Notes: a model not told the origin generated them from the letters alone. A stretch of DNA of 56,821 bases from a virus (IMGVR_UViG_3300009181_000084:1-56821); one strand, 5' to 3'; counted from the first letter of the stretch, positions 1 to 8,531 are shown. Numbers and translations: made by a program.

Positions 1-63
1 ACTATTTCTACCAAATCTCTCTACTTCATAGAGACCTTGTCTTGAGTTAATGTGTATTTTCAT
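1..63 (-). CDS. Partial minus-strand gene entering from the left edge
   Basis: An ATG on the minus strand at 61-63 opens a frame that stays open to the window edge and begins MKIHINSRQGLYEVERF. Only 21 codons are visible, so no family can be assigned. It points away from the structured non-coding region to its right, and its leader (rich in A and T, no Shine-Dalgarno) looks like those of the other minus-strand genes. I do not see the repeated upstream element that precedes the other minus genes, so it may be transcribed differently. It could be the first gene of a minus-strand operon lying outside the window. Confidence 0.45.
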   Translation of the reverse strand, partial: MKIHINSRQGLYEVERFGRNS

Positions 64-660
64 TTTAAGTTTATTTATAAGTTTATGTTTAAGTTTAAAA
101 ATCCCTCTGCACTCAGTTGTAATATTGGAAGTCTAGACTAACACTCTCTTAGCTTAATACTGATCAAGTATTAAAGTAGTTAGTTGCTTTGCTGTAAGCC
201 ATCTATTACAACTGTCTCACCTTGGGAATGAGAAATGGTGCATTACTAATTTTAATTTATAAGATTCCGGATTCAATAGTTATAATACTCTCCTACTAAA
301 GTAATAAGTACAAAGATAGTAGTATAATGTGAGTATGTTGACTAAGTTCATAACTTAGCCATATATTAATATAGATATAGCATAATCAGGTAGTTACAGA
401 ACTCAGTTAAAGCATTAGTTTAGGTGGGTGTTTGACTGTCAACTAAAGATACAGTCACAAGCTCACACAAATTATATCCACATAACTATTTAACTACCAG
501 CATGTTACAGCATTACCTACAACATAATTAACATCACCTGTAATATAATCAATTTGATTAACATCTACGGTGTGAGACTGTCAATATGATTAATATTAAT
601 ATTATATCACTGTCAAATTATACTTAATGCATCTGACTGAGTATATATATGTATAAAACA
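64..660. other. Non-coding, highly structured region
   Basis: About 600 bases without a convincing gene. It is packed with inverted repeats: an 11-bp pair at 114-124/204-214 enclosing 137-142/179-184 and 154-161/167-174; a hairpin at 342-358; a long-range pair 389-396/491-498 enclosing a hairpin at 433-439/451-457; and a short AATCAA/TTGATT hairpin near 549-561. No tRNA T-arm consensus was found on either strand. It could be a replication origin, a set of structured RNAs, or a long 5' leader of the gene at 1-63. Confidence 0.55.
114..214. repeat. Nested inverted repeats (three coaxial stems)
   Basis: CAGTTGTAATA at 114-124 is the exact reverse complement of TATTACAACTG at 204-214. Inside it, ACTAAC (137-142) pairs with GTTAGT (179-184), and inside that TTAATACT (154-161) pairs with AGTATTAA (167-174) across a GATCA loop. 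Three perfect nested stems in a 101-base span are unlikely to be random, though AT-rich DNA raises the background. Either strand could fold, so orientation is not determined. Confidence 0.55.
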
Positions 661-662
661 TA

Positions 663-785
663 TTATATAACATTAATAATAATCAATATGACAGGATTAT
701 CTTGTACAATAATCAAATTAAAAGTAGGTTTATAAGACCACATAAGAATATAAAATAATACTTTTAAGACATTAGACCACATCAT
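663..785 (-). CDS. Small hydrophobic protein (40 aa), possible membrane peptide
   Basis: A longer open frame begins at 854, but that start would place the repeated minus-strand upstream element (809-826) inside the gene. Starting at the MMWSNV codons (785) puts the element about 24 bases upstream, as in its neighbours. The resulting 40-residue peptide is strongly hydrophobic (VLKVLFYILMW, then VILIIINVI), compatible with one or two membrane segments. I do not recognise the family. Support is the upstream element and spacing only; the gene could also be spurious. Confidence 0.35.
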   Translation of the reverse strand: MMWSNVLKVLFYILMWSYKPTFNLIIVQDNPVILIIINVI

Positions 786-808
786 ACAAAAACACAACAA
801 TCCACAAC

Positions 809-826
809 AGTTTAAAGTTGAATAAA
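809..826 (-). promoter_or_regulatory. Repeated minus-strand upstream element, copy 1
   Basis: Plus-strand AGTTTAAAGTTGAATAAA matches the consensus GTTAARAGYTGAATAAA shared by eight minus-strand gene leaders. It lies about 24 bases before the start at 785 and is followed on its upstream side by a small hairpin (833-845). Confidence 0.5.
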
Positions 827-832
827 TAAAAG

Positions 833-845
833 TTGACGCAGTCAA
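833..845 (-). repeat. Mini-hairpin next to upstream element copy 1
   Basis: TTGAC-GCA-GTCAA, a perfect 5-bp stem with a 3-base loop. Equivalent hairpins with different stem bases occur beside copies 2 and 6, so the fold rather than the sequence appears conserved. Confidence 0.45.
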
Positions 846-910
846 GAAAAACATACAGTATATAAAATACAGTATTACTAATTAAATACATAGTGCATAA
901 AAATAATAAA

Positions 911-932
911 CCCCTGCCTGTTACAGCAAGGG
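911..932 (-). terminator. Terminator after the gene at 949-1287
   Basis: On the minus strand CCCTTGC and GCAGGGG can pair (one G-U) across an 8-base loop, followed by TTTATTATTTTT. It sits 17 bases past the stop codon. Confidence 0.55.
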
Positions 933-948
933 TATATTCTTCCGTGTG

Positions 949-1287
949 TTAAGCGAATGGGTTATCTTCCAACCCGTCTTCATCTTCAACCACAGGTGTT
1001 GGTGCGTCCACACCATAGTCTTCCCAACTAAGGCTTTCAATAACCAACCCTGCAACACTTGGTACAATAGTTTTATTATCATCTAATAATGATAACGCAA
1101 AAGATACTTCATCTCCTGCTTCTACTTGTCCCCATACACTCTCGTATATAACTCCAAATGCAGGTTTAGTACTTTTAGAAATAATTATACACGTTTTATA
1201 ACGCGTATTTTTATCACTTTTACTGATTTTAATGGCTTCATTGATACTTTTCAGGGTACCTTTGCCAAAAATGGTTTTCTTTTCCAT
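949..1287 (-). CDS. Small protein with acidic SSB-like tail (112 aa)
   Basis: Begins MEKKTIFGKGTLKSINEAIK and has a central beta-rich region, then a tail of acidic residues ending EDEDGLEDNPFA. Acidic tails closing on a phenylalanine are typical of single-stranded DNA-binding proteins such as SSB (DIPF) and T7 gp2.5, where they recruit replication partners. A repeated basic segment (KISKSDKNTRYK) precedes it. This is inference from tail and size; the OB fold is not demonstrable by eye and 112 residues is short for an SSB. It has its own upstream element (1323-1344) and terminator (911-932), so it looks like an independent early unit. Confidence 0.6.
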   Translation of the reverse strand: MEKKTIFGKGTLKSINEAIKISKSDKNTRYKTCIIISKSTKPAFGVIYESVWGQVEAGDEVSFALSLLDDNKTIVPSVAGLVIESLSWEDYGVDAPTPVVEDEDGLEDNPFA

Positions 1288-1322
1288 AATCTTAAATTTA
1301 ATTAATTAAACATTTATATCCC

Positions 1323-1344
1323 TAATAGTTTAGAGCTGAATAAA
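1323..1344 (-). promoter_or_regulatory. Repeated minus-strand upstream element, copy 2
   Basis: Full-length match including the flanking TAATAG; one of the best copies. It lies 36 bases before the start at 1287. The mini-hairpin TGCC-GCA-GGCA lies at 1353-1363. Confidence 0.6.
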
Positions 1345-1352
1345 ATAAAAGC

Positions 1353-1363
1353 TGCCGCAGGCA
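1353..1363 (-). repeat. Mini-hairpin next to upstream element copy 2
   Basis: TGCC-GCA-GGCA. Both sides of the stem differ from the hairpin at 833-845 while pairing is kept; flanked by GAAAAA as in the other copies. Confidence 0.45.
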
Positions 1364-1365
1364 AG

Positions 1366-1391
1366 AAAAAAAGGGGATGTTACTCCCCCTT
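1366..1391 (-). terminator. Terminator after the gene at 1397-1768
   Basis: On the minus strand GGGG and CCCC pair across about nine bases, followed by seven T residues. It starts six bases past the stop codon. Confidence 0.65.
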
Positions 1392-1396
1392 AATAT

Positions 1397-1768
1397 TTAT
1401 AAATTTTTAAACATAGCAACTAAGTCAGCATGGTCATCATTACCATTTGAGTTTTCTAACTCAGGTAACTCAGGTAGGTTAACATCTTTACCTGAATATG
1501 CATACCAATCTATTGAACCACAACCTGAGCTTTTACTATAGGTCTCTATGACATATTTCTCAAGCATTTCCCATATATCATCAAAATACATACCTGTTAC
1601 TTTATAATACCCATCAGAAGTAAGGCCATCAAATCTTGGTACATAACCCATAGTATCCCATGAGTAACCATCATCAAACATTCTAACTTTCTCTGCAACA
1701 AATGTGATAACAGGAAAAGGTATAGTAGCTTCTACCTCAATCTTTTTTTTATACGTTATTGTTTTCAT
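1397..1768 (-). CDS. Unknown small early protein (123 aa)
   Basis: Begins MKTITYKKKIEVEATIPFPV and is rich in aromatic residues (YSWDTMGY, GYYKVTGMYFDDIWEML). It ends in an acidic, asparagine-rich stretch and ADLVAMFKNL. No family recognised. The start at 1768 is supported by the AATTAAAACTATTTATTATG-type leader and the upstream element at 1797-1815. It is a single-gene unit with its own terminator (1366-1391). Small, promoter-proximal phage genes of this kind are often host-takeover factors, but nothing in the sequence proves that here. Confidence 0.65.
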   Translation of the reverse strand: MKTITYKKKIEVEATIPFPVITFVAEKVRMFDDGYSWDTMGYVPRFDGLTSDGYYKVTGMYFDDIWEMLEKYVIETYSKSSGCGSIDWYAYSGKDVNLPELPELENSNGNDDHADLVAMFKNL

Positions 1769-1796
1769 AATAAATAGTTTTAATTAATATTAATAA

Positions 1797-1815
1797 GAGT
1801 TAAAAGTTGAATAAA
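1797..1815 (-). promoter_or_regulatory. Repeated minus-strand upstream element, copy 3
   Basis: Plus-strand GAGTTAAAAGTTGAATAAA, about 28 bases before the start at 1768. Confidence 0.55.
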
Positions 1816-1836
1816 AAAAGGGGATATTACTCCCCT
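1812..1836 (-). terminator. Terminator after the gene at 1851-2024
   Basis: Minus-strand AGGGGA/TCCCCT stem with a short loop followed by seven T residues; it runs directly into upstream element copy 3. Confidence 0.6.
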
Positions 1837-1850
1837 GTTTCATTTTCCAT

Positions 1851-2024
1851 TCAAGATATGTTAGCTTCAATACCTTCCTGGACACGTGCTCTATAAGCTT
1901 TCAAATCAGATAACTTACATTTTTCTTCATGTATTTGAGCTTGAAGCTTAGTAAGATTTCTTTCAATCTTAGCAATATCATAATCTAGCATTTCAGCTAA
2001 ATCAAATAAATTATTTGTTTTCAT
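1851..2024 (-). CDS. Short coiled-coil protein (57 aa)
   Basis: Translating the minus strand from the ATG at 2024 gives MKTNNLFDLAEMLDYDIAK and continues to a TGA at 1851. The body (IERNLTKLQAQIHEEKCKLSDLK in outline) has leucine and isoleucine spaced as in a heptad repeat, so a short coiled coil or helical hairpin is likely. No function is recognised. The gene has the repeated upstream element at 2051-2072 (27 bases before the start) and its own terminator, which are the main reasons to call it real despite its size. Confidence 0.6.
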   Translation of the reverse strand: MKTNNLFDLAEMLDYDIAKIERNLTKLQAQIHEEKCKLSDLKAYRARVQEGIEANIS

Positions 2025-2050
2025 AATCTTTAATTTAAATTAATAATTAA

Positions 2051-2072
2051 TAATAGTTAAGAGCTGAATAAA
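2051..2072 (-). promoter_or_regulatory. Repeated minus-strand upstream element, copy 4
   Basis: The best match to the family consensus (TAATAGTTAAGAGCTGAATA, then AA), 27 bases before the start at 2024. Confidence 0.6.
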
Positions 2073-2076
2073 TTAA

Positions 2077-2101
2077 CAAAAAACATAAAGGCTATAAGCC
2101 C
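2077..2101 (-). terminator. Weak terminator overlapping the stop of 2092-2292
   Basis: Minus-strand AGGGCTTATAGCCTTTATG can form a short GGCT/AGCC stem followed by TTTTTTGTTAATTT. The hairpin includes the TAG stop codon at 2092-2094. Confidence 0.4.
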
Positions 2102-2292
2102 TTACGTTTCTTATATTCATCAGAATACTTCTCATTATCAGGGGCCATACTAGCACCCCAAATAAAGAAAAATGAAAACATGCATAATATAGCACATGCA
2201 GTTGGTGCTTTCTCTGCCCATGCTTCATAAGCAAAGACCCCTATAATGATACCTATGAAGGTCATCATTATAAACTGAAAAGAGTATTTCAT
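2092..2292 (-). CDS. Small membrane protein (66 aa)
   Basis: The open frame extends back to 2349, but the downstream ATG at 2292 is preferred. It follows the usual AATTTTAATTATTATG leader, and the longer version would run through the terminator and the end of the 27-codon gene at 2324-2407. From there the protein reads MKYSFQFIMMTFIGIIIGVF and has a second hydrophobic run (PTACAILCMFSFFFIWGASM), so two membrane helices with a charged C-terminus (SDEYKKRKGL) are likely. Function unknown. No upstream element lies between it and the 27-codon gene, so the two may share the promoter at 2428-2449 with partial termination between them. Confidence 0.55.
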   Translation of the reverse strand: MKYSFQFIMMTFIGIIIGVFAYEAWAEKAPTACAILCMFSFFFIWGASMAPDNEKYSDEYKKRKGL

Positions 2293-2306
2293 AATAATTA
2301 AAATTA

Positions 2307-2325
2307 AAGGGGCTACTAACCCCTT
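2307..2325 (-). terminator. Hairpin between the 27-codon gene and the membrane gene
   Basis: Minus-strand AAGGGG-TTAGTAG-CCCCTT, a perfect 6-bp stem followed by TTAATTTTAATT. It overlaps the stop codon at 2324-2326 and could act as an attenuator for the downstream gene. Confidence 0.55.
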
Positions 2326-2407
2326 AGTTAAACAATTCATCTTCATCATTTAAATCTTCAATGCTATAATAAGCATCAAGAAATACTGCTAATTCTTTTT
2401 CATCCAT
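2324..2407 (-). CDS. 27-residue acidic peptide gene
   Basis: Minus-strand ATG at 2407, stop TAA at 2324-2326: MDEKELAVFLDAYYSIEDL and a further acidic stretch ending ELFN. Too small to classify. It is called because it has the full package seen at its neighbours: the upstream element at 2428-2449, an ATTATTATG-type leader and a hairpin at its stop codon. It could be a genuine acidic micro-protein (for example a host-enzyme inhibitor) or a leader peptide for the membrane gene downstream. Nothing beyond context separates these. Confidence 0.45.
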   Translation of the reverse strand: MDEKELAVFLDAYYSIEDLNDEDELFN

Positions 2408-2427
2408 AATAATAAGTTTTAGTTTAT

Positions 2428-2449
2428 TAATAGTTAAAAGCTGAATAAT
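2428..2449 (-). promoter_or_regulatory. Repeated minus-strand upstream element, copy 5
   Basis: Near-perfect copy (TAATAGTTAAAAGCTGAATA), 21 bases before the start at 2407. Confidence 0.6.
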
Positions 2450-2450
2450 T

Positions 2451-2482
2451 TTAAAAGAGAGAAATGCCCGAAGGCATTCTCT
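2451..2482 (-). terminator. Terminator with UUCG tetraloop after 2482-2670
   Basis: The minus-strand RNA would fold ATGCC-UUCG-GGCAT with extra GAGA/TCTC pairs, then CTTTTAAAATTATT. A C(UUCG)G loop is exceptionally stable. The hairpin begins at the stop codon. Confidence 0.65.
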
Positions 2483-2670
2483 TATATGTCTCTATGAAAA
2501 GAGTAAAATCTGTAGGGTAATTGCCCTCCTTTAGGATGAGCAATGAATGTATCAAGATTAATAATGTAATCAGCAGTTTCTAAGATGTCTCCATCTTCTG
2601 CTATTAAATTCTGTGTGAAGTAGATGTTGTTCTCTTTGTCATCTCCCCAATAAAGTGTTATGTTTTCCAT
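2482..2670 (-). CDS. Unknown small early protein (62 aa)
   Basis: Reads MENITLYWGDDKENNIYFTQ, then an acidic middle and LPYRFYSFHRDI at the end. No family recognised. It has an upstream element at 2698-2717 and its own UUCG-type terminator (2451-2482). The mixture of alternating hydrophobic and charged residues suggests a small beta-rich domain. Single-gene transcription unit like its neighbours. Confidence 0.55.
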   Translation of the reverse strand: MENITLYWGDDKENNIYFTQNLIAEDGDILETADYIINLDTFIAHPKGGQLPYRFYSFHRDI

Positions 2671-2697
2671 AATAATAAATTTAATTAATATTTAATA

Positions 2698-2717
2698 AAA
2701 GTTAAAAGCTGAATAGA
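2698..2717 (-). promoter_or_regulatory. Repeated minus-strand upstream element, copy 6
   Basis: Core GTTAAAAGCTGAATA at 2701-2715, about 28 bases before the start at 2670. A mini-hairpin (TTGC-GAA-GCAA, 2721-2731) follows on the upstream side. Confidence 0.55.
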
Positions 2718-2720
2718 AAG

Positions 2721-2731
2721 TTGCGAAGCAA
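2721..2731 (-). repeat. Mini-hairpin next to upstream element copy 6
   Basis: TTGC-GAA-GCAA followed by GAAAAA; third member of the covarying hairpin set at 833-845 and 1353-1363. Confidence 0.4.
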
Positions 2732-2732
2732 G

Positions 2733-2758
2733 AAAAAATAAGGGTATAACCCCTTATT
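2733..2758 (-). terminator. Terminator after 2754-2894
   Basis: Minus-strand AATAAGGG/CCCTTATT perfect 8-bp stem followed by a T-rich tract; overlaps the stop codon. Confidence 0.65.
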
Positions 2759-2894
2759 CATCCCACCATACCATAACAAAATTACCAAAAACATCTACAC
2801 CAAATGAATACCCACCAGATCCATTTATAATAAATATTCTTTCTTTAAAAAGAATATTATTATCACTATCAGTCACTACTTTATTATACCACAT
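2754..2894 (-). CDS. Unknown micro-protein (46 aa)
   Basis: Minus-strand ATG at 2894 to TAA at 2754-2756: MWYNKVVTDSDNNILFKERI, then a glycine/aromatic-rich stretch ending VMVWWDE. Alternating hydrophobic residues suggest a small beta sheet. It has an upstream element at 2915-2936 (21 bases before the start) and a strong terminator. No function can be assigned. Confidence 0.5.
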   Translation of the reverse strand: MWYNKVVTDSDNNILFKERIFIINGSGGYSFGVDVFGNFVMVWWDE

Positions 2895-2914
2895 AACTCT
2901 AAGATTTAAATTAT

Positions 2915-2936
2915 TATTAGTTGTGAGCTGAATAAA
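2915..2936 (-). promoter_or_regulatory. Repeated minus-strand upstream element, copy 7
   Basis: GTTGTGAGCTGAATAAA core, 21 bases before the start at 2894. Confidence 0.55.
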
Positions 2937-2939
2937 TTA

Positions 2940-2970
2940 AAAAAAATAAGTAAGGGTATAACCCCTACTT
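2940..2970 (-). terminator. Terminator overlapping the stop of 2965-3165
   Basis: Minus-strand AAGTAGGGG/CCCTTACTT-type stem with one bulge and a TTATA loop, followed by a run of T residues. Confidence 0.55.
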
Positions 2971-3165
2971 AGTTCTTATAATCTCAAATATTAATAAGTT
3001 TGCACTTACTATCTGTATTTGATATTTAACTAACTCACCTTTAGTAATGAGTGAGTTAATAAAAGCTTGGATTTGACTCATGCTTTTAATTTTTGAGGTA
3101 GTTTCACCTACCATTTCTAATGATGGATCCACCATCATTAGAGTAACTTTAATATCTGTTCTCAT
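2965..3165 (-). CDS. Unknown small early protein (66 aa)
   Basis: Reads MRTDIKVTLMMVDPSLEMVG, then a helix-forming segment (SKIKSMSQIQAFINSLITKG) and a beta-like end (VKYQIQIVSANLLIFEIIRTK). It is the most promoter-proximal minus-strand gene, next to the divergent control region. Upstream element copy 8 lies 16 bases before its start. No family recognised; a compact alpha/beta fold is plausible. Confidence 0.55.
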   Translation of the reverse strand: MRTDIKVTLMMVDPSLEMVGETTSKIKSMSQIQAFINSLITKGELVKYQIQIVSANLLIFEIIRTK

Positions 3166-3180
3166 AATTCTAAAATTTCA

Positions 3181-3202
3181 TAATGGTTATGAGTTGAATT
3201 CT
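3181..3202 (-). promoter_or_regulatory. Repeated minus-strand upstream element, copy 8
   Basis: Most diverged copy (GGTTATGAGTTGAATTC core), 16 bases before the start at 3165, the closest spacing of the set. Confidence 0.45.
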
Positions 3203-3211
3203 TTTAAAACA

Positions 3212-3272
3212 ATGGGGGGTACCAGCTAGGCCTGAAGGGCCGGGGGGTTTGCTATGGAGGGTCCACCTCCAT
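3212..3272. other. G-rich island at the divergence point
   Basis: In otherwise AT-rich DNA this stretch has two G6 runs (3214-3219, 3242-3247), GGG at 3237-3239 and GGAGGG at 3256-3261. It also has GGCC-TGAAG-GGCC (3229-3241) and a perfect ATGGAGG/CCTCCAT hairpin (3254-3260/3266-3272). It could form a G-quadruplex on the plus strand. It separates the minus-strand early cluster from all plus-strand genes. Confidence 0.6.
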
Positions 3273-4496: not shown

Positions 4497-4714
4497 AATG
4501 GCTTTTGATATTATTATTGTATTCATGTGCATCAGTTGGTCCTAACTATAATCAAGGAGGAAGTCACAATGATGATATGGCAATGCGTAGTAAGATTGTA
4601 TTCAAAGAAGACTTGAGAGTTAAAAACAAAATGGTTAGTACAAGAAGCTTTGCTAAAAAGAGTATACATAAGGCAAAAAAAATTAGAAATAAAAAATTAA
4701 AAAAGTATATCTGA
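4493..4714 (+). CDS. Small phage lipoprotein (73 aa)
   Basis: Starts in the ATGA overlap with the previous gene. Residues 1-12, MKWLLILLLYSC, form a short signal peptide with a lipobox (LYSC, Cys12). The mature part is small, polar and ends very basic (KKSIHKAKKIRNKKLKKYI). Bacteroidota phages often encode such short lipoproteins; possible roles are superinfection exclusion or an outer-membrane spanin. It is far from the lysis cassette at 11325-13132, which argues against a spanin. The operon appears to end at the terminator at 4795. Confidence 0.65.
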   Translation: MKWLLILLLYSCASVGPNYNQGGSHNDDMAMRSKIVFKEDLRVKNKMVSTRSFAKKSIHKAKKIRNKKLKKYI

Positions 4715-6607: not shown

Positions 6608-6643
6608 AAATACCACAGATATAATATGTTTGTGGTATTTTTA
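6608..6643 (+). terminator. Hairpin terminator inside the fibre cassette
   Basis: AAATACCACA/TGTGGTATTT, a perfect 10-bp stem followed by TT. The open frame of the next gene extends back into it, which supports the later start at 6666. Confidence 0.75.
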
Positions 6644-6665
6644 CATTAAACTAAAAATAATAATC

Positions 6666-8531
6666 ATGTTAAATAATATAACTAATTATTCTAATCTTAT
6701 TAGTAATGGTAAAATTAGAACACTCTTGGATGCAACAGATTTATTTACGGTAGGTGTAAGAGATTCAAACTTTATTGGTAATTATCAACCTGTATTAATA
6801 ACCTCAACTAATTTAGCTAATAGTATTGCTAGTTTGTTACCATTCCCTTTTACTTTAACTACAACAGGTACATCAGGTGCATCAACATTAATTGGTACAG
6901 TATTAAACATTCCTAATTATACTAGTGCTGGTGTTGCTTCAGTTACTGGATTAGATACAGATAACACAGATCCTTTAAACCCAATAGTTAATATTGCAGT
7001 TGATGGAGTTACAGTTACAGGAGATGGAACTTCTGGAAATCCTTTAGTAAGTGTTGCTAGTGGAGTTGCATCTGTAACAGGATTAGATACTGATAATACT
7101 GATCCACTTAATCCTATTGTTCAAATATCTGTTGATGGTACTACAATAACTGGAGATGGTACTTTAGGTAATCCACTTGTAGCTGTTTCAGCTGCTGGCA
7201 TTATTAATGAAAGTAAAGTTATATATGTTGATTCTGTATATGGAAATGATGCAACAGGTTTAAAGTATAATGTAGCTAAGTCTTTTTTAACTTACAGTGC
7301 AGCAGTTGCAACCGCAGTAGCTGGAGATTGGATTGTATTTAATGCAGGAAATCATGATATATTTTCGGTTACACCTATAAGTGATGTTAATGTTTATTGC
7401 AAAGCAGGTGCAATTATTAATGGAGGTTTTAACATAAACTCATCTATAACTTGGAAATTATTAGGGTTTGCTGTATTTTCAGGATCTTTTGATGCATTAA
7501 GAATTGTAGGAACAGGACAGACATATGATATTCAATTTGAATTTGATAAAATTGATGGCCTTATGTCTTTTGGAATAGTAGTACTTGATACATCTTCTCC
7601 TTCTTGTAAACTGCAAGTTAATTGCACTAGTATAACTGCAAGTGTACCTTTTAGATTAAACGGAGGTAGTGTATATGATGTAGTAGTTAATTGTAAGTAT
7701 AAAATAAGTGGATATGGTTCAAATTCAAGTATGCTAATGGGTGGAGGTTCAGGCATACTTATTATGTCAGGAACAATTATAGTTAATAGTCCAATAATTG
7801 AAAATACTTCTATTTCATCAACTAGATGTGTAATAAATTTTACTAATAATTCTAGAAATGTTGTTATAAATGCTGAAACAATTAGAATGACTTCTTCTAC
7901 TTTTGTGGATTCAGGACTTAATAATTTAGGTACAGTTATTTTTGCAGCAGGAGATAATAATTTTATAAACGGAAATATTGAGGCAGGCCCTGTACCATGT
8001 ATAATAAGTTACACTGCTGGTGCAACACCCCTTTACGGAAATATAACTTTTACGGGTAATCTATATTCAGACAGAGAAATAGTGCAACATTATCAAAAAG
8101 TAGCTAATGGTAACGGATGGATGAATATAATAATTAAAAATGGGTTCATTCAGTCTAAAGGAATTGGATTGTCAAACTCTATGTTTAATAGGGCTAATAA
8201 TTGGAATTTTATACATGGAGGAATACCTGGTAGTATTCAAGTATTAAATTGTGTAGTATACAATCAAAATTTTAATGCATCTGCAACAGCTGCTGTAATG
8301 AGAGATGATGTAAGTGGACCAGTTAAAATAAATAATTTTCAAATATATAATTCATTAGCTTATATTCAAGGTGGAGTTGGTTTCTTAGAGGACACTACAC
8401 AACCTGCTAAAGAAACATTTATTCATAATGTAAGATCAAACATAAATAAAGCTGTTACTGTAACTGATATTGCTACGCCTACAGGGTTAATCGTAGATCC
8501 TAATTTAATAATACCAAAACCAAAATTGTAA
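6666..8531 (+). CDS. Beta-helix appendage protein (621 aa), likely receptor-binding or depolymerase
   Basis: The open frame begins at 6630 within a terminator, so the ATG at 6666 (MLNNITNYSNLISNGKIRTL) is used. Residues about 90-177 hold two tandem copies of a 44-residue VTGLDTDNTDP...GDGTSGNPL module, also found once in the protein at 9731. After about residue 180, YVDSVYGNDATG and a 'GDWIVFNAGNHDI' segment mark the entry to a right-handed parallel beta-helix; the asparagine- and serine-rich body (about 200-590) fits that. Such phage proteins bind or degrade surface polysaccharide. Catalytic residues cannot be identified by eye. The last 40 residues end FIHNVRSNINKAV and a short proline-rich tail. 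Confidence 0.7.
   Translation: MLNNITNYSNLISNGKIRTLLDATDLFTVGVRDSNFIGNYQPVLITSTNLANSIASLLPFPFTLTTTGTSGASTLIGTVLNIPNYTSAGVASVTGLDTDNTDPLNPIVNIAVDGVTVTGDGTSGNPLVSVASGVASVTGLDTDNTDPLNPIVQISVDGTTITGDGTLGNPLVAVSAAGIINESKVIYVDSVYGNDATGLKYNVAKSFLTYSAAVATAVAGDWIVFNAGNHDIFSVTPISDVNVYCKAGAIINGGFNINSSITWKLLGFAVFSGSFDALRIVGTGQTYDIQFEFDKIDGLMSFGIVVLDTSSPSCKLQVNCTSITASVPFRLNGGSVYDVVVNCKYKISGYGSNSSMLMGGGSGILIMSGTIIVNSPIIENTSISSTRCVINFTNNSRNVVINAETIRMTSSTFVDSGLNNLGTVIFAAGDNNFINGNIEAGPVPCIISYTAGATPLYGNITFTGNLYSDREIVQHYQKVANGNGWMNIIIKNGFIQSKGIGLSNSMFNRANNWNFIHGGIPGSIQVLNCVVYNQNFNASATAAVMRDDVSGPVKINNFQIYNSLAYIQGGVGFLEDTTQPAKETFIHNVRSNINKAVTVTDIATPTGLIVDPNLIIPKPKL
6933..7197 (+). repeat. Tandem VTGLDTDNTDP module, two copies
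   Basis: Copy 1 is 6933-7064 and copy 2 is 7065-7197, each about 44 codons. The peptides are nearly identical, but third codon positions vary. A third copy lies in the gene at 9731 (about 9893-10024). Confidence 0.8.

Follow-up and report, generated by a model that had tools for sequence, protein, structure and literature searches.

A template-strand C(GNA)G hairpin as a candidate accessory module of early promoters in crAss-like phages

A small DNA hairpin with a G-N-A loop closed by a C-G pair was found beside a repeated, promoter-like element in front of short leftward genes of a crAss-like phage and its relatives. The stem bases covary, the loop rule is constant and the hairpin keeps to one side of the element and to the template strand. 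We consider it slightly more probable than not (roughly 55%) that this is an accessory DNA hairpin module of the early promoter, which would be extruded from the template strand and would boost or time the transcription of a few genes.

Results

The phage and its gene layout

The DNA analysed (the window) is a crAss-like phage fragment, catalogued in IMG/VR as a virus record and 56,821 bases long. A 1780-aa protein encoded in it matched the Crassvirus muzzle family PF25731 (E 2e-33), and its capsid protein (MCP) gave a distant match to members of Crassvirales. By sequence the phage is classed as crAss-like (Crassvirales) on the muzzle protein and the crAss MCP, together with a giant DFDxD RNA polymerase (RNAP) taken from relatives; the giant RNAP gene is absent from the window fragment and present in relatives. 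Structural genes run rightward, and the left end is a series of short leftward genes, mostly single-gene units closed by a terminator-like structure and preceded by the element. The leftward genes are encoded on the - strand, and their template is accordingly the + strand. No Pfam or PHROG match was found for any of them, and Rfam and tRNA searches gave no match.

Some rightward genes (window 3484, 4864 and 13249) have a TATATTTG box, the host-type promoter box of Bacteroidota, 24-31 nt upstream, and no leftward gene has such a box. The window also holds a 127-nt direct repeat (73% identical, 6929-7187) within the rightward gene 6630-8531 and, in the divergent region at about 3211-3262, a GC-rich block (GGGGGGTACC...GGGGG) in AT-rich surroundings. 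This block is kept in relatives, at about 4513-4555 in locus L172 and about 2675-2715 in L173.

A repeated element in front of leftward genes

The element, AGTTNNNAGYTGAATA on the + strand (AGTTNNNAGYTGAAT), occurs in seven exact copies in the window, where 0.04 would be expected, and we infer that it is a promoter. All copies point leftward (- strand). Copy 1 (809-824; + strand AGTTTAAAGTTGAATA) has no downstream gene of at least 60 aa, copy 2 (1327-1342) lies upstream of gene 949-1287 and copy 6 (2700-2715) upstream of gene 2482-2670; each of these three has a hairpin beside it. Copies 3 (1798-1813, upstream of gene 1397-1768), 4 (2055-2070) and 7 (2919-2934) have none, and copy 5 (2432-2447) is adjoined by a tetraloop terminator with no C(GNA)G hairpin. 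An eighth, degenerate copy (GGTTATGAGTTGAATT, 3185-3200), upstream of gene 2965-3165, is also without a hairpin.

Copy 1 and its hairpin point into a stretch without open reading frames (window 1-808), which is kept in relatives (L199, L219 and L230). It contains short repeats and a 30-nt inverted repeat (578-607 / 665-694), and is a candidate replication origin or non-coding transcript.

The three window hairpins

An earlier note on this DNA had described mini-hairpins beside copies 1, 2 and 6, on the side away from the downstream gene and each followed by GAAAA, and both the sequences and the GAAAA were confirmed. All three lie on the + strand, the template of leftward transcription: TTGAC-GCA-GTCAA at 833-845 (hairpin 1; loop 838-840), TGCC-GCA-GGCA at 1353-1363 (hairpin 2; loop 1357-1359) and TTGC-GAA-GCAA at 2721-2731 (hairpin 3; loop 2725-2727). 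Hairpin 1 is identical in the relative L009, and hairpin 2 reads TTGCC-GCA-GGCAA there.

Each loop is G-N-A closed by C-G on the template strand, a rule that the earlier note had not given. No other C(GNA)G triloop hairpin with at least 4 bp in its stem exists in the window (both strands, 56.8 kb). All three, and all four in one 120 kb relative, sit at elements and on the template strand. Within this one phage the three stems have different sequences under a constant loop rule, a pattern to be expected if shape and loop are what is recognised.

A terminator scan found a terminator proper before all three hairpins. Two terminator-like structures on the - strand end the preceding leftward genes: one at 1370-1391, whose T-run abuts hairpin 2, and one at 2736-2759, which adjoins hairpin 3. 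For copies 2 and 6 the A-run of GAAAA, seen in + orientation, is the T-run of the preceding terminator. At copy 1 the nearest terminator (933-910, - strand), that of gene 949-1287, lies upstream of hairpin 1 and is more distant from it.

Hairpins recur in relatives that carry other elements

A capsid protein search found hundreds of relatives. The window's exact element was absent from all 37 records of relatives found by capsid protein, because each phage carries its own element; a broad scan of viral contigs with the window's element as the pattern returned mainly isolated chance matches. The left arms of relatives share the same gene plan with an element that differs by phage (for example AGTTAAAAAATGG, AGTATAAAGCTGTA, AGTAATAAGATGTT and AGTCAAAAGAGGTA, with the rough common core AGTNNNRARNKG). 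Elements differ in some phages despite a capsid protein 98-99% identical (window 809-3200; L172, L173, L188 and L191-L193), so that promoter specificity, judged from these sequences, seems to change faster than the capsid gene.

Although the element sequence changes, C(GNA)G-type hairpins recur beside it. An unrelated anchor gene was used to retrieve 76 further loci, in which 52 hairpins were found in the left arm versus 4 to the right of the anchor, where the sequence is longer. At least one hairpin was present by the strict rule in 17 of 21 left arms of little shared sequence, and at least three of the others (the genome of L176, L177 and L269) showed hairpins when examined in other ways. 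The regular expression used for the element misses variants (L180, L191 and L192 have other elements, also with hairpins), so the group counts are lower bounds. The arrangement was not found at early promoters of phi14:2 and crAss001 (cultured) or of the gut genomes cr108_1 and cr118_1. Since the sampled cultured crAss-like phages are without it, the feature may be confined to this uncultured aquatic crAss-like group, of which a searched phage collection had no member.

Enrichment is confined to one loop class and one strand

For statistics we used 123 non-redundant elements upstream of leftward ORFs, counting hairpins on the template 3' side up to 48 nt away. C(GNA)G hairpins were found at 36 of the 123, compared with a mean of 0.38 and a maximum of 4 in 300 dinucleotide shuffles, which bears out the earlier claim that the hairpin is tied to the repeated element. 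The other 87 elements have none, so the hairpin is not essential for this promoter class. No hairpin of the strand-reversed (complementary) form C(TNC)G was found among the 123 elements, and no C(GNA)G hairpin on their other flank. Other GC-closed triloops (21 vs 25.8 in shuffles) and AT-closed triloops (60 vs 58.8) were at chance level; the enrichment is thus confined to C(GNA)G, with no other hairpin class enriched.

Stem lengths were 3-7 bp, mostly 3-5, and the central loop base was A in 19, C in 12, T in 4 and G in 1 of the 36 hairpins. Measured from the far end of the element, the loop centre is 19-31 nt away, mostly 23-31, and phages of one element type are alike in this. At a few elements the loop is AAA instead of GNA (e.g. 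CCCC-AAA-GGGG; L173:722-732, L177 near 4783, L264 near 4056), so the GNA rule may be relaxed in places.

Stem bases change in pairs

We then took all 40 CGNAG pentamers near elements regardless of pairing, with 838 such pentamers elsewhere as background. Stem positions 2 and 3 formed Watson-Crick pairs in 38/40 and 36/40, versus 25% and 27% elsewhere, and all four pair types were found at position 2. The covariation score was 0.578 (26 distinct versions). A shuffle control, which ignores phage relatedness, gave 0.161 with none of 500 as high, and a slid control, which allows for relatedness, gave at most 0.146. The stem bases covary around a fixed loop G and A and a fixed closing C-G, and the earlier observation that stem bases change on both sides with pairing kept extends to clear compensatory change in relatives. 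Nearest-neighbour DNA folding favoured the template strand by only 0.2-0.3 kcal/mol in most tested cases, with the reverse in two, a difference too small to decide between strands.

The hairpin marks particular genes

The hairpin was found at 11 of 13 genes of family A, 11 of 12 of family B, 4 of 4 of family D and 3 of 8 of family C, and at few of other families; the twelfth family B member has an AAA loop. In the window the family B gene is 949-1287 (- strand; 112 aa), with a predicted OB fold and an SSB-like acidic C-terminal tail, and the other hairpin-linked gene, 2482-2670 (- strand; 62 aa), has no assigned function. The AlphaFold model of the 949-1287 product (mean pLDDT 80) is a five-stranded barrel whose best PDB matches are the OB folds of RPA, Teb1, PriB and SSB (probability 1.0, E 5e-3), and its acidic tail EDEDGLEDNPFA resembles that of SSB proteins. 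With moderate support from this model, the product is predicted to be an OB-fold, SSB-like protein. The predicted fold of family A had no reliable structural match. As judged from sequence, then, the hairpin marks particular genes, above all the gene for the OB-fold SSB-like protein.

The distance from element to start codon has a median of 38 nt with a hairpin and 24 nt without. Across the 123 elements these distances cluster at about 18-19, 23-25 and 29-30 nt without a hairpin and at 38-45 nt with one, a spacing near 6 nt. With many elements 18-30 nt from the start codon, and with the terminator of the gene before often directly adjoining the hairpin, there is not much space for any promoter besides the element.

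Comparison with N4 promoters and stable mini-hairpins

In phage N4 the early promoters are hairpins of the template strand with a 3-nt loop; supercoiling made by gyrase extrudes them and SSB maintains them (PMC4496689). C(GNA)G on the template strand is the sequence rule for the extrusion and stability of the N4 virion-RNAP promoter hairpins (PMC4496689), whose stems are 5-7 bp in N4 and 4-5 bp in LUZ7-like phages (PMC3715699). The hairpins described here resemble those of N4 (Schitoviridae) promoters P1-P3 in the template strand, the 3-nt loop, the closing C-G and the 5' G and 3' A of the loop (PMC4496689, PMC3715699), and the remaining stem bases are likewise free as long as pairing is kept. 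In both cases there are few copies, clustered in one early region, in a phage group with a giant RNAP.

The two also differ. In the phages studied here the hairpin lies at a variable distance upstream of a distinct core element, only a minority of elements have a hairpin, and the central loop base is free, where N4 needs a purine (-11A/G). By the N4 rule a template +1C is expected 11 nt from the loop centre, and none of the 36 hairpins has a C at offset -11. The RNAP homologue is of the unrelated crAss type, whereas the N4 virion RNAP is T7-like. The homologue is present in 10 of 12 long records of relatives. Searches of PDB, Pfam and PHROGs with the RNAP segment gave no sequence match, and tblastn related it to the RNAP of phi14:2. 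PF00940 (T7-like RNAP) matched none of the 12 long records, a result to be read beside a control that was equally without match.

The earlier note had suggested a link to N4-type promoters. What stands of this is the template-strand C(GNA)G rule, tied to the element; what finds no support is a literal N4-type promoter, given the +1C (0/36), the free centre base, the varying distance and the crAss-type RNAP. Because the structural half of the N4 rule holds, the enzyme-specific half does not and the distance varies, we read the hairpin as an accessory module upstream of a core promoter. A loop centre at so variable a distance (19-31 nt, measured from the element's far end) makes a rigid single N4-like complex unlikely. 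These sequences would thus be best read as early promoters with an accessory DNA hairpin that resembles those of N4 in structure, and not as N4 promoters.

The Cellulophaga phage phi14:2, which is crAss-like and has a virion RNAP, shares with this group a homologous giant RNAP gene, the muzzle protein and the general gene plan, and differs, as do crAss001, cr108_1 and cr118_1, in that hairpins stand at early promoters here. The giant phi14:2-type RNAP would be the natural candidate for the reader of the hairpin.

The C(GNA)G class, which includes d(GCGAAGC), comprises extraordinarily stable DNA mini-hairpins known chiefly as isolated oligonucleotides, and aptamer papers make use of them. Hairpin 3 contains GCGAAGC exactly and the others share the C(GNA)G rule, but here, unlike the isolated oligonucleotides, they form a promoter-linked family in phages.

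Discussion

Could the hairpin work in the transcript instead? As a C(UNC)G triloop in the RNA it might form, for instance, a 5' leader bound by the OB-fold protein for autoregulation. It does precede a gene for a likely nucleic-acid-binding protein, the strand asymmetry alone fits UNC loops in a transcript as well as GNA in the template, and RNA folding is of similar strength. Against this, in many cases the previous gene's terminator ends at the hairpin, leaving no room for an upstream promoter or start. Hairpins also stand before unrelated genes, and the one at copy 1 has no gene after it. As a DNA loop C(GNA)G is known to be special, and we know of no such standing for C(UNC)G in RNA. We regard this strongest rival as unlikely. 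A signal in single-stranded DNA, for replication or another process (primase, origin or nuclease site), that lies beside early genes by chance appears more doubtful still. Single strands do form GNA hairpins, and for copy 1 in particular, which points into the ORF-less repeat region and a possible origin, such a role is conceivable; across the array, however, the hairpins go with individual promoters and gene families, and their strand is constant with respect to the gene.

The hairpin might also be a second, weak terminator or insulator that keeps read-through out of the hairpin-linked gene. A simple terminator scan accepts hairpin 2 itself, and 19 of the 36 hairpins have at least 5 T in 8 bases on the coding side. 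The T-rich tail is missing in the other 17, though, stems are often just 3-4 bp, and terminators do not require a GNA loop. In L172, L226 and L230, moreover, a hairpin stands at the first element of the array with no leftward array gene before it. The separate proper terminators before all three window hairpins and the 17 tails that are missing likewise speak against the alternative raised earlier, that the hairpin is simply part of a terminator, and we think a terminator role improbable. Poorer yet are the prospects of a double-stranded operator, a palindrome bound as normal duplex by a dimeric regulator: a short inverted repeat beside a promoter has the usual look of an operator, but here the arms are free to vary, also among the hairpins of one phage, and the spacer stays constant, the reverse of what an operator would show.

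In the accessory-hairpin reading that we prefer, early promoters of single leftward genes would have the repeated element as their core, and the mini-hairpin would be an optional addition placed immediately upstream of this core. It would act as DNA, the template strand folding in the cell into the C(GNA)G triloop and being extruded under negative supercoiling as at N4 promoters. It would most likely be read by the injected crAss-type RNAP or an early cofactor, and would increase the transcription of a few selected genes or set its timing, chiefly for the SSB-like OB-fold gene.

To our knowledge, DNA hairpins are established as promoter parts only for N4 and its kin, and a literature search of open-access papers found no report of such hairpins in Crassvirales. 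More tentatively, and with rather less confidence than in the module itself, we suggest that T7-like (N4) and two-barrel (crAss-like) virion RNAPs may independently have come to use promoters with an extruded C(GNA)G template-strand hairpin, here as a separable module that selects a subset of early genes. If true, this would be a second case of hairpin promoters, in a widespread phage group and with an unrelated polymerase, and DNA extrusion on incoming genomes would be a more general early-gene switch. It would also provide a concrete, testable sequence for the promoters, so far little understood, of crAss-type polymerases, and connect these promoters with an SSB-like protein, the same kind of factor on which N4 depends.
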